Of a stretch of DNA of 53,153 nucleotides, positions 47,572 through 53,108 are shown piece after piece. Positions within the stretch are counted from its first letter, which is position 1, and every line of letters starts with the position of its first letter. Source of the DNA: Bacteroidaceae bacterium. Lineage in GTDB: Bacteria > Bacteroidota > Bacteroidia > Bacteroidales > Bacteroidaceae. A program made the position numbers and the translations under genes. A model generated the notes under the pieces. It did no database searches, was not told where the DNA came from, and worked only from the letters and a program-made list of their open reading frames with translations. The stretch covers positions 1 to 53,153 of the forward strand of contig JAFUVZ010000017.1 of the NCBI GenBank assembly GCA_017471185.1, written 5' to 3'.

Positions 47572-48819
47572 ATGACTTACAAAGTAACACCCCCAAAAAG
47601 TATTAGTGGTAGCATCAGTCTCCCCGCATCGAAAAGCATCAGCAACCGAGCGTTGGTTTTGAAAGCTTTGGCACATGGTACTCATGCCATTGAAAATCTG
47701 GCTGACTGTGATGACACGATGGTTATTATCAACGCTTTTGACAGGAGCGAAGAGGTGGTTGATATCAAAGCGGCAGGTACTGCCATGAGATTCCTAACGG
47801 CATACTATAGCACCCAGCCTGCCACCAGAATCATTACTGGTACAGAACGCATGAAGCAAAGGCCCATAGGTATTCTGGTAAATGCCCTACGTCAGTTGGG
47901 AGCAGACATTGAGTATATGGAAAGAGAGGGCTATCCCCCGCTTCGTATTACAGGACGGCAATTACAAAGCAAAGAACTGACCTTACCAGGAGATGTGAGT
48001 TCGCAATACATATCAGCTCTGCTGATGATTGCCCCCACCTTACCAACAGGTCTGCAACTCTCGTTAACAGGACAAGTGACCTCGCTGCCATATATAGACA
48101 TGACCTTACAGATGCTACATGATTTCGGAGCGGCAGCATCCAGAAATGGCAGCATGAATTCCATGCAGATTTCAGTACAGGCAGGTAATTATCAAGACAT
48201 CCCATATACCATAGAAAACGACTGGAGCGCAGCATCTTATTGGTATGAGATGGTAGCTATTTGTGAGAACCCGAATGCTTATGTCATATTGCCTCATTTG
48301 TATGCAGATAGCACACAAGGCGACTGGAAAGGTTCTCTTATCTTTTCAAAACTGGGAGTACAGACGGAATTCAAGCCAGAGGGCATACGAATCTATAAAG
48401 AAGGCAAACCTACAGAAAAACTGGAACACGACTTCACAAAGATTCCTGATTTGGCACAGACATTCGCCGTTACCTGCTGCCTCATGGGAATCCCTTTCAG
48501 ATTCTCAGGACTTCATACCCTCCGTATTAAGGAGACAGACCGAATTGACGCACTCATCAACGAACTTCACAAATTGGGATACGTGCTTCACGCTGAAGGA
48601 AACGAAGCGTTGCGTTGGGACGGAGAAAAATCTCAAGCTGATGAAACGCCTGTTATTGCCACTTATAATGATCACCGTATGGCTATGGCTTTCGCTCCTG
48701 CTTCCTTGCGTTTAGGCTCAATCATGATTGAACATCCCGAAGTGGTAAGCAAGTCATATCCCCGCTATTGGGACGATTTGCAAAAGGCTGGATTTATATT
48801 AATGAAGAATGAAAAATGA
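47572..48819 (+). CDS. aroA: 3-phosphoshikimate 1-carboxyvinyltransferase (EPSP synthase)
   Basis: 415 residues, divergent Bacteroidota type. ISLPASKSISNRALVLKAL (K21, S22, R26), IKAAGTAMRFLTAYY, TGTERMKQRPIGILVNALRQLGA, DVSSQYISALLMIAP, IKETDRIDALINELHKLG and TYNDHRMAMAFAPASLRLG are the substrate-binding signatures. It forms EPSP in aromatic amino acid synthesis. Its last five codons (MKNEK) and stop fall in a heptanucleotide ATGAAGA repeat, so the C-terminus is probably repeat-derived. Confidence 0.94.
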   Translation: MTYKVTPPKSISGSISLPASKSISNRALVLKALAHGTHAIENLADCDDTMVIINAFDRSEEVVDIKAAGTAMRFLTAYYSTQPATRIITGTERMKQRPIGILVNALRQLGADIEYMEREGYPPLRITGRQLQSKELTLPGDVSSQYISALLMIAPTLPTGLQLSLTGQVTSLPYIDMTLQMLHDFGAAASRNGSMNSMQISVQAGNYQDIPYTIENDWSAASYWYEMVAICENPNAYVILPHLYADSTQGDWKGSLIFSKLGVQTEFKPEGIRIYKEGKPTEKLEHDFTKIPDLAQTFAVTCCLMGIPFRFSGLHTLRIKETDRIDALINELHKLGYVLHAEGNEALRWDGEKSQADETPVIATYNDHRMAMAFAPASLRLGSIMIEHPEVVSKSYPRYWDDLQKAGFILMKNEK

Positions 48820-49127: not shown

Positions 49128-49237
49128 TCGGCGAAAAGCGATGGCAAAGATTCTGCTAAAAACCGTTATTACGATGAACTCAGCAAAGAAAATTATTATT
49201 TCAGCGTCGTACAACAGCGTTAAACTATGTTAAAAAT

Positions 49238-49245
49238 GGGGGGGG
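49238..49245 (+). repeat. Poly-G tract (G8) upstream of the RiPP-like operon
   Basis: Eight consecutive G in an otherwise AT-rich intergenic region, about 52 bp before the radical SAM start codon and about 25 bp upstream of a TATCTTAG box (49270-49277). Homopolymer tracts of this length can slip during replication, so promoter phase variation is possible. Confidence 0.75.
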
Positions 49246-49297
49246 TAATAAAGGTACACAAATATTTTGTATCTTAGCAGCCGAATTAGGCAGATTT

Positions 49298-50383
49298 ATG
49301 GACAAATTACCCTATAGAGAATTCCTGGCGATGATGCAGGAGCGGACCCGCGAGGCGGACATCCCGTACAGTGGCAGTTTCGAGTTGACACCGCTGTGCA
49401 ACCTCGACTGCAAGATGTGCTATGTGCATCTGCAGGACCCGTCGGTCAGGCAGCGGATGCTCTCGGGCGAGCAATGGATATCGCTTATCCAGCAGGCCAT
49501 CGACGAGGGCATGATGATTGCGGGTCTCACAGGCGGCGAGGCCATGACACACCCTGCCTTCTGGGACATCTATATGTATCTGCTCAACCATGGCATTACT
49601 ACCTTTGTTAATACCAACGGTCTCCTACTGAACGAGGAGGCCGTCAAACGGTTCCAGGCGTACAGGCCCTTTCAAATTGCTATCTCCCTTTATGGCTGCG
49701 ACAGCGAGTCGTATGTGGCGGTGACGGGCGTGGATGTCTACGAGCAGGTGGTGAGGAATATCCGGCTGGCCATCGATGCTGGGTTGCATATCCGAATCAA
49801 TATAACCCCCAGCAAGTTTATGTCGCCCTGGACGGAGCGGGTAATGGCGCTGGCCAAGTCGTTTGGTGTGAGCGTGATAGTGAATTATAGCCTCATTGAG
49901 GCTCGTGAAGATACGGGCAGGAAGAAAGCGGACTTTGACATTCCACTTGAAGAAGACCTGAGAATCTTGGAAAAGAGAAGGGAAATGTTTTCTTCAGGGT
50001 ATTCAACTGGCGATCATGAGTTCTTTATGAAGCGATGTAACCGTCCACATGTGTCGGACAAGGGATTGTATTGCAATGCCGGCCGTTCGGGCTTTGCCGT
50101 CAACTGGGATGGTGCCATGAAGCCTTGCTTAAATTTCCCAAGAGATGTGGTGTGCGGATATCCGCTGCGCGACGGATTCCGTCAGGTCTGGAGCGAGGTG
50201 AACGAGGGGGTAAAGAACTACGAGGTGCCCCAGGCATGCCACAGTTGCGAGGTGAACGACAAGTGCCATTACTGCCCGAAAGTTCATCCGAAAGTGGCAG
50301 CCAAGCATCAATGCGATCCCGATTATTGCAACTATCTGAAGGCAAAATTCAGAGCATCAGAAAAGACAGAAAAACATAATTAA
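49298..50383 (+). CDS. Radical SAM/SPASM peptide-modifying enzyme
   Basis: 361 residues. The radical SAM core begins at about 25 with the [4Fe-4S] motif CNLDCKMCY (C34, C38, C41), then GLTGGEAMTHP, VNTNGLLL and AISLYGCD. A C-terminal SPASM domain has Cys at 259, 277, 314, 317, 323, 326, 339 and 344 (CNAGRSGFAVNWDGAMKPC; CHSCEVNDKCHYC), enough for two auxiliary clusters, as in PqqE-like and sactipeptide/ranthipeptide maturases. Such enzymes make thioether or C-C crosslinks in precursor peptides (family knowledge). A small precursor-like gene follows 44 bp after its stop, then a PqqD-like gene. The chemistry here is not predictable from the sequence alone. Confidence 0.92.
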   Translation: MDKLPYREFLAMMQERTREADIPYSGSFELTPLCNLDCKMCYVHLQDPSVRQRMLSGEQWISLIQQAIDEGMMIAGLTGGEAMTHPAFWDIYMYLLNHGITTFVNTNGLLLNEEAVKRFQAYRPFQIAISLYGCDSESYVAVTGVDVYEQVVRNIRLAIDAGLHIRINITPSKFMSPWTERVMALAKSFGVSVIVNYSLIEAREDTGRKKADFDIPLEEDLRILEKRREMFSSGYSTGDHEFFMKRCNRPHVSDKGLYCNAGRSGFAVNWDGAMKPCLNFPRDVVCGYPLRDGFRQVWSEVNEGVKNYEVPQACHSCEVNDKCHYCPKVHPKVAAKHQCDPDYCNYLKAKFRASEKTEKHN

Positions 50384-50427
50384 CGACCGAAAGGTCATAT
50401 TGTTCAACAAATAAAAACTTTTAAAAG

Positions 50428-50556
50428 ATGAAAACAGAAAAAAAGACTTACGAGGAGCCTACCGTTCAGAAGGTAGAGTTCGACTTCAAGACCAGAATGG
50501 CACACTCAGGCTGGGACACAATCCCAGGTGGTGGCGATGGATGTGTCCCTTTGTGA
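50428..50556 (+). CDS. Candidate RiPP precursor peptide (42 residues)
   Basis: ATG at 50428, TGA at 50554-50556. The leader-like part (about 1-25) is charged, MKTEKKTYEEPTVQKVEF then DFKTRMA. The TVQKVEFDF stretch is the kind of short beta strand bound by PqqD/RRE domains (inference). The core-like end (about 26-42) is HSGWDTIPGGGDGCVPL: Gly-rich, with single Trp (29), single Cys (39), Ser27 and Thr31. The single Cys rules out disulfides within the core but permits a radical thioether. Position between a SPASM radical SAM gene and a PqqD gene is the main evidence. It has no similarity that I recognise to a named precursor family, although short Bacteroidota precursors with a K-K-Y-x-x-P start are common. 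Confidence 0.78.
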   Translation: MKTEKKTYEEPTVQKVEFDFKTRMAHSGWDTIPGGGDGCVPL

Positions 50557-50596
50557 TAGCGAAGGTTTCTGTGAATTTTAATTAATAACGATTGTT

Positions 50597-50875
50597 ATGC
50601 AAATGAGCGAACCACAATTGAACAAAGACTTTGTGCTCCGCAAGGTGTGCGGTATTAACGTCGTATTGCCTACGGGGCTCCAAGTCAAGGACTTTGGCGG
50701 GGCACTGAATCTTAACGATACTGCTGCGCTCATTTTCGAGCAGCTGCAGGCTGGCAAGACCGTCGAGGAAACGGCTGCCGCCCTGGTGGCAGCGTATGAC
50801 GTGACGCCCGAAAAGGCCCTTGCCGACGTACAGAAGACCATCGACTCGCTACGGGAGACCGGCGTGGTGGACTGA
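50597..50875 (+). CDS. PqqD-like peptide-recognition protein (RRE)
   Basis: 92 residues. The winged-helix PqqD fold: FVLRKVCGINVVLP and FGGALNLNDTAALIFEQLQAGKTVEETAAALVAAYDVTPEKALADVQKTIDSLRETGVV. In PqqD and its relatives the domain binds the precursor leader and presents it to the radical SAM enzyme. It lies 40 bp after the precursor stop and 2 bp before the protease gene. Confidence 0.9.
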   Translation: MQMSEPQLNKDFVLRKVCGINVVLPTGLQVKDFGGALNLNDTAALIFEQLQAGKTVEETAAALVAAYDVTPEKALADVQKTIDSLRETGVVD

Positions 50876-50877
50876 CG

Positions 50878-51327
50878 ATGCTGAGCAACTACAACGAAAT
50901 CGTAGCGGAAGCCATACGGCGAGTTGAAAACGGTGAGAGGGTGACGTTGCCCGTGAATGGGCACAGCATGCTCCCTTTCGTTGTGGGTTGGCGCGACTGT
51001 GTCATCTTGCAGAAAGCTGCTCATCCTAAAGTCGGCGACGTCGTAGTGGCTTGGGTAGAAGGTCGGCGCTATGTGTTACACCGCATCATCCGTATCGACG
51101 GTGAGCGTGTCACGCTGATGGGCGACGGCAACCTAAGAGGTACGGAAACGTGTACGCTCAGCGACGTGAAGGCATTGGCCACGCATGTTGTCGATGTCAA
51201 GGGCAGGACGCATGATTTATACAACAGGTGGCGGAGAAGGGCGGTGAGAGTATGGTGGCATGTCCGTCCCGTGAGGCGTTATCTGCTTGCCATTTATCGG
51301 CGAACCCACCATATTGTTTATATTTAG
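50878..51327 (+). CDS. Signal-peptidase-like Ser/His protease without a membrane anchor
   Basis: 149 residues, S24/S26 fold. Catalytic S30 is in LPVNGHSMLPFV. In place of the Lys of bacterial signal peptidase I there is His (H68 in YVLHRIIRID), as in the S26B ER/SipW type. LMGDGN (about 81-86) is the conserved substrate-side loop. There is no N-terminal membrane helix, so the enzyme is cytoplasmic or peripheral. The last 35 residues are Arg/Trp/Tyr-rich (RWRRRAVRVWWHVRPVRRYLL), which could bind membrane or peptide. In this operon it is the likely leader peptidase (inference). Spacing to neighbours is 2 and 3 bp. Confidence 0.85.
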   Translation: MLSNYNEIVAEAIRRVENGERVTLPVNGHSMLPFVVGWRDCVILQKAAHPKVGDVVVAWVEGRRYVLHRIIRIDGERVTLMGDGNLRGTETCTLSDVKALATHVVDVKGRTHDLYNRWRRRAVRVWWHVRPVRRYLLAIYRRTHHIVYI

Positions 51328-51330
51328 CTT

Positions 51331-52233
51331 ATGCACGAATACTACTTTGCCAACTACCGCCTGTTGGTGGATGACGACATCAGCAACAGCGACCATATGA
51401 AATATCTGGCTGGCTTCAGCATGGCGATGCCCGCCACTCATACCTTTACACTTCGTCTGGGCGACGAGGCGCTGCTCGACCAGAAGTACGCAGAGGCTAT
51501 GTTGCATCCCATCGTCTGCACAACGGATCAGTTCTACATCCACGACACGCAGGATTCCTGGACCATCGTCCCGCTGATGAACGAGAAAAGGATAAAGCGT
51601 CATGGCAAGTATGTGCTGACCTGCGCCAGAGATTATAGCGAGATGACATTTTACATCTCCAGACAACCTTTCTATTCTGAAATGATAAAAGAATGGGTGA
51701 TGCCCGTGCCCCACATGTCCTCTGCCATCCGTACAGCCTGCGAGGCAGGCATGACGATGCGCGACGGGGTGCCCCTGCACGCTGCGCTGGTAGAGAAAGA
51801 CGGCTACGGCGTCGTGTTCCTCGGCCCTTCGGGTATGGGCAAGTCGACGCAGGCAAAACTCTGGGTGGAGCATCAAGGAGCCGACTTCATCATCGGCGAC
51901 CGCCCGGGCCTTCGCCGCATTGACGGTCAATGGATAGGCTACGGCATGCCCTGGGACGGCAAGGACAGCATCATGCAGCAGAAGCAGGCGCCCATCCGTG
52001 CGCTCATCTCCTTGGAACAAGCCCCAGAGAACAGCATCCGCCGCCTCACGAAACAGGAGGCGATGAACGTGCTGCTCAACCAGGTGATGATGCCTATGTG
52101 GGACGATGCTGCCATGGCACTACTCACCCCCCTGATGGGCCAGCTCGCCACCGAAATTCCCTTCTACCATCTGAAGAACCTGCCTAACAAGGAGGCAACC
52201 GAACTGACACGCGAGACTATCTGTGAAACATAA
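51331..52233 (+). CDS. HPr-kinase-like P-loop protein, first copy
   Basis: 300 residues. The C-terminal half (about 145-300) is of the HPr kinase/phosphorylase type: H150 in VPLHAALVEKDG, Walker A GPSGMGKS (165-172), IIGDRP with D190, and the GYGMPWDGKDS segment. The N-terminal part (about 1-140) has no recognised domain. HPr-kinase homologues phosphorylate the C-terminal residue of some lasso peptides (family knowledge), so modification of the precursor is a plausible role. It is not next to ptsH and is therefore not likely to act on HPr. Confidence 0.8.
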   Translation: MHEYYFANYRLLVDDDISNSDHMKYLAGFSMAMPATHTFTLRLGDEALLDQKYAEAMLHPIVCTTDQFYIHDTQDSWTIVPLMNEKRIKRHGKYVLTCARDYSEMTFYISRQPFYSEMIKEWVMPVPHMSSAIRTACEAGMTMRDGVPLHAALVEKDGYGVVFLGPSGMGKSTQAKLWVEHQGADFIIGDRPGLRRIDGQWIGYGMPWDGKDSIMQQKQAPIRALISLEQAPENSIRRLTKQEAMNVLLNQVMMPMWDDAAMALLTPLMGQLATEIPFYHLKNLPNKEATELTRETICET

Positions 52234-52235
52234 TC

Positions 52236-53108
52236 ATGCAGGAGGACCACAATATGATAACGAAACATTACAAGGTGGCGGGGCATACGTTTGCCATCAG
52301 CGGCAGCGATGAACTCTTTGAGCAGATGGAAAACTATGAGCCATTTGAATGTGAAGGCATTGAGCCGTTGTTTACGTTGACGGAAGACAGCGGCGCAGTG
52401 CCTGAATATATGGAAGTGTATCGGATAGAGGGCGACAGGACGACTGTCATCCACGGCCATACTGCTTCGGGAAACGACGTGTTTGAATTTGCAAGAAGAA
52501 GAACGAAGTCAGAAGGTTGTCTGATCTGTTCAAAAGACCACCGCGAAGGTCGGCTCATCTTGAAGAGACGCATTTATAAAACGGTTTTTAATGATGCGCT
52601 GATGATGCTGTTTGCCTTGGCGACGGCAGGAAAAGATACGCTGCTCCTCCATGCCGTCGCGGTGAGCCAGGAGCGTAAGGGCTACCTGTTCCTCGGCCCC
52701 AGCGGTGAAGGGAAAAGTACGCACGCCCGATTGTGGCTGGAGCATGTTGAGGGGACGGAGTTGGTCAACGACGACTTCCCTGTAGTAAGAGACGGGGTGG
52801 TCTATGGCTCGCCATGGGGCTGGGGAATACCGTGCTACAGGAATGTCTGTTACCCCATCGGCGGCATTGTCTGCCTTAATCAGGCTCCCTATAACAAGAT
52901 ACAGCGCTTGAACGGTGTCGAAGCATACATGAATCTGTATCCAAGTGTTTTAGGCAATGGTTTGGGTATCGTCGAGGAGATAGACGAGGGCTGGCATCAG
53001 ACGGAGAACGCACTTGCCTCCACCATCCCGATGTGGCATCTGGATTGCCTGCCCGACGAGGCGGCGGCGAGGCTGTGCCATGATACCATCACGAATCAGG
53101 GAATATAA
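52236..53108 (+). CDS. HPr-kinase-like P-loop protein, second copy
   Basis: 290 residues. The same architecture as the upstream gene, with H139 in LLLHAVAVSQ, Walker A GPSGEGKS (154-161) and an NDDFPVVRDG motif (D179, D180) that matches the canonical HprK Asp better than the GDRP of the first copy. GSPWGWGIPCYRN follows. The two proteins share the fold but differ in the N-terminal 130 residues. An ATG at 52254 is an alternative start. The 2-bp gap suggests co-translation. The operon may continue beyond the window. Confidence 0.82.
   Translation: MQEDHNMITKHYKVAGHTFAISGSDELFEQMENYEPFECEGIEPLFTLTEDSGAVPEYMEVYRIEGDRTTVIHGHTASGNDVFEFARRRTKSEGCLICSKDHREGRLILKRRIYKTVFNDALMMLFALATAGKDTLLLHAVAVSQERKGYLFLGPSGEGKSTHARLWLEHVEGTELVNDDFPVVRDGVVYGSPWGWGIPCYRNVCYPIGGIVCLNQAPYNKIQRLNGVEAYMNLYPSVLGNGLGIVEEIDEGWHQTENALASTIPMWHLDCLPDEAAARLCHDTITNQGI

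Follow-up and report, generated by a model that had tools for sequence, protein, structure and literature searches.

A candidate operon for a modified peptide, combining lasso-type accessory proteins with a radical SAM/SPASM enzyme, in a Bacteroidaceae bacterium

The right end of a contig from a Bacteroidaceae bacterium of Prevotella type from the rumen (JAFUVZ010000017.1, GenBank assembly GCA_017471185.1) carries an operon of six genes, which encode a radical SAM/SPASM enzyme, a short precursor peptide, a PqqD-type protein, a protease resembling the S26B signal peptidases and two proteins resembling HPr kinases (HprK-1 and HprK-2; Table 1). The stretch analyzed, hereafter the window, is this whole contig (C1, 53,153 nucleotides) of an assembly (G000) that is 80% complete; loci compared with it carry L labels. 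The interpretation of the operon as a pathway for a ribosomally synthesized and post-translationally modified peptide (RiPP), with lasso-type accessory parts around a radical SAM/SPASM enzyme, is well supported by sequence comparison. An earlier note on this DNA had listed the six genes in this order, with gaps of 2-3 bp between the last four, and the coordinates agree (PqqD/protease 2 bp, protease/HprK-1 3 bp, HprK-1/HprK-2 2 bp).

Recurrence of the gene set

Relatives were sought in a contig collection with both radical SAM copies of this genome (the second is described below) and two short peptide patterns. At least 80 loci were recovered (80 of 85, a lower bound) and divided by profile score into a near (31), a middle (41) and a lowest group (8), with partner genes counted within 4 kb. 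The near group, which includes near-duplicates (e.g., L006/L007, L014/L015 and L025/L026), has PqqD at 29 loci, an HprK-like gene at 26, an S26-like gene at 26 and a precursor-like open reading frame (ORF) at 30; where at least 3.5 kb is available on both sides, each of the four is present at 11/11 near loci. The corresponding counts are 30, 27, 22 and 11 in the middle group, and 1, 1, 2 and 0 in the lowest group (0/2 each with both flanks). Hosts of the cassette are bins or isolates of Bacteroidota, Bacillota, Actinomycetota and Synergistota, and one Chloroflexota bin. This recurrence is not chance. Moreover, HprK-like and PqqD domains form one ORF at 15 loci (distant Clostridia), and in two Lachnospiraceae bins an HprK-like domain is followed by radical SAM/SPASM in a single ORF of 621 aa (L058:8203-10065 and L060:8203-10065); through such fusions the HprK-like proteins are linked to the pathway. 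The earlier note had staked its proposal on the genes occurring together elsewhere, and so they do, more widely than the note supposed, at all 11 near loci with both flanks and in the fusions.

The nearest kin of the operon are Prevotellaceae bins. A midpoint-rooted tree of 68 radical SAM rows groups all 19 from Bacteroidota in a single clade (100/100). That clade is nested in one of 32 whose other 13 rows are mostly Bacillota, and the two copies of this genome fall on separate branches. L033, the row from Chloroflexota, hardly differs from L022 of Lachnospiraceae and may reflect a binning error. Carriage by viruses or plasmids was rejected: no relative is encoded by any of the 44 stretches of viral contigs that matched the pattern, and plasmids gave none at E 1e-20 (the search covered viral contigs and plasmids, with phage-record collections outside it).

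Precursor family and modifying proteins

The short ORF downstream of the radical SAM gene, which the earlier note took for a precursor, belongs to a conserved precursor family of 28 aligned rows. Left out of the alignment were L007 and L015 (same as L006 and L014), L023 (precursor located elsewhere and off consensus), L032 (none found) and L063 (cut); the core of L025 was counted by eye. All share the leader motif YExPxV..VEFD, in which Y8, P11 and VEFD are invariant; the window has YEEPTV, and the last place of this motif is V or I, never L. The core starts with [S/T]-x-[C/W] in 28/28 precursors, the first place being Ser in 27 and Thr in one, and position 3 being Cys in 26 and Trp in two (window and L006). 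Ala directly precedes the core in 24/28 (the exceptions are His in the window, Tyr in L006, Gly in L018 and Pro in L028). Core length ranges from 12 to 24 residues, and the C-terminal residues are unconserved.

Over 17 Bacteroidota rows, in an ungapped, anchored comparison, mean pairwise identity is 86% in the leader and 9% in the core. L006 differs from the window at 0/75 leader bases, as compared to 13/51 core bases, which alter 8/17 codons, all non-synonymously; the radical SAM genes of the same pair differ by 16 non-synonymous and 24 synonymous changes in 361 codons. On these comparisons, the core evolves by diversifying change. The L006/L007 core has an extra Cys three residues after the Trp, absent from the window core, and the L013 core has three Cys.

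Pfam models match the radical SAM enzyme (Radical_SAM 2.6e-18, SPASM 7.8e-5) and the PqqD-type protein (PqqD 5e-15), all above cut-offs. C34/C38/C41 and C259, C277, C314, C317, C323, C326, C339 and C344 of the radical SAM enzyme are invariant (25 rows), so that the CxxxCxxC and SPASM cysteines are present; the last Cys spacing is CX2C, where CX3C is usual. Only 28 residues lie N-terminal to the radical SAM domain, a stretch too short for a fused leader-binding domain. The nearest solved structure is SkfB (6efn, E 8.6e-15), a thioether-forming maturase. Known NCBIfam radical SAM equivalogs were rejected as assignments, as they score far below cut-off among 25 of 57 models (AlbA 65.5/850, SkfB 41.2/300, PapB 37.4/340 bits). 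The best NCBIfam match of the PqqD-type protein is lasso_PqqD_Strm (4.5e-12, 46 of 70 bits). For the radical SAM enzyme PADLOC gave viperin models and no others, and the other four proteins tested drew no match; the presence of a precursor and PqqD led us to reject a defense system. A second radical SAM gene of 433 aa follows HprK-1 as an optional member in L006 (3863-5161), L007 (3462-4760) and L013 (3362-4583); the L013 copy is 72% identical and split over two frames.

The protease matches Peptidase_S24 at 8.3e-6, above the Pfam cut-off. S30, H68 and D83, invariant in 30 rows, fall on the SEC11C motifs SM, HR and GD in an alignment at E 3.2e-7, and the predicted structure has a pLDDT (predicted local distance difference test) of 90. 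Since the best 19-residue hydropathy mean is 0.95, with no hydrophobic segment or membrane anchor, the protein would be a soluble relative of S26B (Sec11-type) peptidases. Of the terms used in the earlier note, 'Ser/His' is correct and 'soluble' agrees with the hydropathy.

Proposed pathway and alternatives

We consider the following pathway somewhat probable overall; its chemical steps and the order in which they occur are inferred, as are the site of cleavage and the role of the product. PqqD would bind the leader through YExPxV and hand the precursor to the radical SAM/SPASM enzyme, which would put one or more cross-links into the short core at the C-terminus of the peptide. The residue at core position 3 (Cys in most relatives, Trp here) and/or the C-terminal Cys would most likely take part. 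The same PqqD would recruit the HprK-like proteins, which would phosphorylate Ser27, the only conserved residue with a hydroxyl group and the first of the core. Removal of the leader by the S26B-like protease, directly before Ser27, would follow, and an ABC exporter whose gene lies elsewhere in the genome would secrete the product. This peptide would probably be directed against or towards other gut bacteria.

The phosphorylation step has its closest precedent in the lasso kinase BsfK, which, according to PMC10368454, has the motif H-G-G-G-K-S-D-D and phosphorylates Ser3 of its core, sped up by a PqqD-like partner. HprK-1 matches Pfam Hpr_kinase_C at 4.1e-4, below cut-off, and its best NCBIfam match is ScmC (6.2e-11, 42.2 of 125 bits, also below cut-off). 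HprK-2 gives no match to the Pfam HprK models, and matches NCBIfam HprK_rel_A at 8.7e-5 (21.8 of 200 bits). H150, G165, G168, G170, K171, S172, T173, G189, D190, R191 and P207-W208-D209-G210 of HprK-1 are invariant (28 rows, five of them fusions). In HprK-2 the lasso-kinase motif is complete; in HprK-1 the first Asp is replaced by Gly and the rest is present. The GDR/PWD type accounts for 43 of the 68 HprK-like domains compared, a set that excludes the partial copies in L001, L002 and L086. Asp occupies the first place in HprK-2, in its kin in L006, L007, L008, L010, L021, L016 and contig C51 of the same genome, and in L058, L060 and L071. By motif, HprK-2 is fully consistent with a peptide kinase, and HprK-1 belongs to a separate subtype, which may lack kinase activity because of the Gly at the first of the two Asp of lasso kinases. 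Of the two possible peptide kinases of the earlier note, HprK-2 is an optional member (present in 6/14 Bacteroidota cassettes that extend 0.9 kb or more beyond HprK-1: window, L006, L007, L008, L010 and L021), and HprK-1 is the constant one.

An alternative is a RiPP without phosphorylation, in which the HprK-like proteins would serve as ATP-dependent factors for leader handling or activation (HprK-1 being a divergent, non-phosphorylating ATPase), and cross-linking and trimming would be the only changes made to the peptide. It would fit the Gly found in HprK-1 at every near-group locus checked and in 57 of the 68 domains (Asp in 11), the optional nature of HprK-2, and a window precursor that lacks a C-terminal Ser, the usual phosphorylation site in lasso peptides. 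We nevertheless regard it as rather unlikely, given that His150, P-loop Lys171/Ser172 and Asp190 of HprK-1 are invariant as expected of a working enzyme, that solved HPr kinases align at its active site, if weakly (best E 3.5e-4), that the HprK-2 motif is complete and both HprK-radical SAM fusions carry two Asp (DDK), and that the place of Ser27 is S or T in all aligned precursors.

It is also conceivable that the core Cys pair forms a plain disulfide and that the radical SAM enzyme makes another change (epimerization, dehydrogenation or similar) and no cross-link. At least two Cys occur in 27/28 cores, the first two 7-16 residues apart. The window precursor has a single Cys, so an intrapeptide disulfide would not be essential if this copy works, and the nearest solved enzyme forms thioethers; we consider this explanation improbable. 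A cofactor system like PQQ or mycofactocin, with the peptide as feedstock for a small redox molecule, shares the radical SAM, PqqD, short peptide and protease parts, and the PqqE and mycofactocin models match the enzyme (4.5e-11 and 3.1e-19, far below their cut-offs), but is very improbable since the core is hypervariable in sequence and length next to a fixed leader, and a cofactor precursor would be conserved.

Several observations besides the Gly in HprK-1 count against the cross-linking and phosphorylation pathway. Linkage is looser in the middle group, where loci with both flanks have PqqD at 17/20, HprK-like at 16/20, S26-like at 12/20 and a precursor-like ORF at 5/20. The window precursor is atypical (one Cys, Trp at core position 3 and His before Ser27), and the L023 candidate has F for Y and VEFE for VEFD and lies 5' of the radical SAM gene. 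The operon stands at a contig end, which comes 45 bases after the HprK-2 stop codon, so that any rightward continuation is beyond view. It contains no transporter gene, and the P. ruminicola-type ABC gene of the same genome is a remnant. Whole-genome searches recovered the radical SAM gene from this genome alone, at 1/158 in the genus (E 1e-60), 1/399 in the family (1e-80) and 1/393 in the order (1e-60), counts that we do not take as a frequency because the genus label looks doubtful: a protein that we take to be dxr-like is just 70-75% identical in the five matching same-genus genomes (six searched).

Operon surroundings, a second cassette and known systems

At the position of the promoter-like element TATCTTAG in the window, L006, L010 and L018 have TACCTTTG; TAnnTTTG is the promoter consensus. 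Located 5' of the operon are a gene that is presumably aroA-like (47572-48819) and a small zinc-ribbon-like ORF with weak Pfam matches only.

Table 1. Features of the operon region in the window.
Feature	Position	Strand	Basis or remark
Promoter-like element, 5' of operon	49265..49277	+	TTTTG then TATCTTAG; alignment of 15 Bacteroidota upstream regions
Radical SAM/SPASM peptide maturase (predicted), 361 aa, CNLDCKMC	49298..50383	+	Pfam and invariant Cys
Precursor peptide (predicted), 42 aa	50428..50556	+	Leader ~1-26, core ~27-42 (SGWDTIPGGGDGCVPL); putative cleavage point
PqqD-type leader-binding protein, 92 aa	50597..50875	+	Start may be 50603, as in relatives
Soluble S26B-like (S24/S26) Ser/His/Asp protease, 149 aa, candidate leader peptidase	50878..51327	+	Pfam, alignment, hydropathy
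HprK-1, 300 aa, 'GDR...PWD' subtype, constant cassette member	51331..52233	+	Alignment
HprK-2, 290 aa, 'NDD' subtype, optional cassette member	52236..53108	+	Start may be 52254

A second, divergent cassette lies on the minus strand of contig C61 (L004) of the same genome. Its radical SAM protein is 80% identical, the leader is nearly the same with a different core (SGCFHPSDMADMFDGDCNIL), the protease is of a different S26 subtype (33% identical), and HprK-1 (80% identical) is followed by tRNA genes, with no HprK-2 in the ORF list. The C61 PqqD gene (L004:9266-9493) has an in-frame TAG about 15 codons before the expected end. Base identity between the cassettes is 0.92-0.95 at 49151-49450, 0.59-0.61 at 50451-50650 (precursor), 0.45-0.56 at 50851-51250 (protease) and 0.86-0.91 at 51751-52150 (P-loop part of HprK-1), from which the two appear as a mosaic.

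The earlier note had seen no transporter, which is true of the operon itself; an ABC gene joins the cassette in P. ruminicola KHT3 (L009), where it begins 46 bases past HprK-1 and is broken by an N run, and in several Bacillota. L027 from Bacillota has the order HprK-1, radical SAM, precursor, PqqD, protease, nucleotidyltransferase PF14907 and ABC exporter; other cassettes vary. In this genome, a P. ruminicola-type ABC remnant, its middle missing, lies at the end of contig C59 (L104, 7813-8441). Continuation of the operon on C59 is not supported, as the C1 and C59 ends share no stretch of more than 10 bases. On contig C51 (L103, 4374-8816), HprK-like (NDD) and S26-like genes face ABC, PF14907 and PqqD genes, without radical SAM; the ABC homologue is an open frame of 542 aa, the N-terminal part of PF14907 is possibly in another frame, and a small ORF (YERPLV...FIAASG; position 599, minus strand) lies about 4 kb away. 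A similar set free of radical SAM (L016:2072-5428, minus strand) comprises a small YERPSM... peptide, an HprK-2 type protein, an S26-like protein, PqqD and an ABC transporter, and shares its contig with a radical SAM cassette. Tailoring-type neighbors of relatives are a protein-kinase-domain gene (L022:10570-11691, L033:2622-3743), a glycosyltransferase (L029:2890-4116, L034:10503-11702) and an arylsulfotransferase (L023:9903-11789).

The operon resembles lasso peptide systems (phosphorylated ones such as paeninodin, pseudomycoidin and BsfA) in its YxxPx[L/V] leader, separate PqqD-like protein and HprK-like kinase, and its relatives share the nucleotidyltransferase PF14907 and ABC exporter. 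It differs in having an S26B-like protease and a radical SAM/SPASM enzyme in place of the transglutaminase-type protease B2 and the asparagine-synthetase-type cyclase, and in the Cys of its core. Membership was rejected with neither B2 nor cyclase among the operon genes; PF13471 (B2) has 0 matches in this 80% complete genome, and the cyclase is absent from the six genes, no genome-wide cyclase search having been made. Sactipeptides and ranthipeptides (AlbA, SkfB and PapB maturases) likewise have a radical SAM/SPASM enzyme and a short Cys-containing core, but the window adds separate PqqD, HprK-like and S26B-like partners, with the scores below NCBIfam cut-offs given above. The SynChlorMet cassette (ScmC-F), judged by NCBIfam model names, also unites HprK-like, PqqD-like and radical SAM/SPASM proteins; unlike it, the window has matches that are all below cut-off (in addition to ScmC and HprK_rel_A, ScmD 21/100 and PqqD_rel_X 17.3/35 bits), with no S26 protease model of that name among the matches. 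No paper under the SynChlorMet name was found in the open literature.

Discrete lasso-type leader-binding proteins are reported by RRE-Finder to co-occur with radical SAM enzymes, and its main text has 0 mentions of kinase, HPr, S24 or signal peptidase (PMC7470986); a rumen survey counts 'RRE-containing' clusters. Loci of the window type may therefore already be tagged in surveys, without a description that we found. The open literature, mostly without subscription papers, yielded no description of the radical SAM, PqqD, S26B-like and HprK-like set, nor did the available parts of PMC10352776, PMC8498205, PMC7533575, PMC7470986, PMC8326336, PMC4289311, PMC13289728 and PMC10368454. Its papers joining HPr kinase and PqqD all concern lasso peptides, and none was found joining HprK, radical SAM and RiPP. 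The earlier claim that these parts are undescribed together stands for the set; RiPP precursors are already known substrates of HprK-like kinases in lasso peptide systems, so the novelty lies only in the combination with radical SAM and an S26-like protease. Tentatively, and with less than even confidence, we propose a new RiPP class in which a radical SAM enzyme and a soluble Sec11-like peptidase would replace the knot-making enzymes within lasso-type machinery, a new 'GDR' subtype of HprK-like kinase would phosphorylate the cross-linked peptide at the first core Ser, strong diversifying selection would act on the core, and the cassette would have passed between phyla in the rumen.

The operon would join, in rumen bacteria, lasso-type leader binding and kinases with radical SAM cross-linking, two RiPP fields that usually stand apart. 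It raises the question whether HprK-like proteins of the 'GDR' subtype have kept kinase activity, and the functional link can be tested directly on the fusions that join HprK-like domains to PqqD or radical SAM. A fixed leader with a core changing at nearly every second residue between close relatives points to a tolerant enzyme set, which would be useful for peptide engineering, and the variable core suggests a role in microbial competition.

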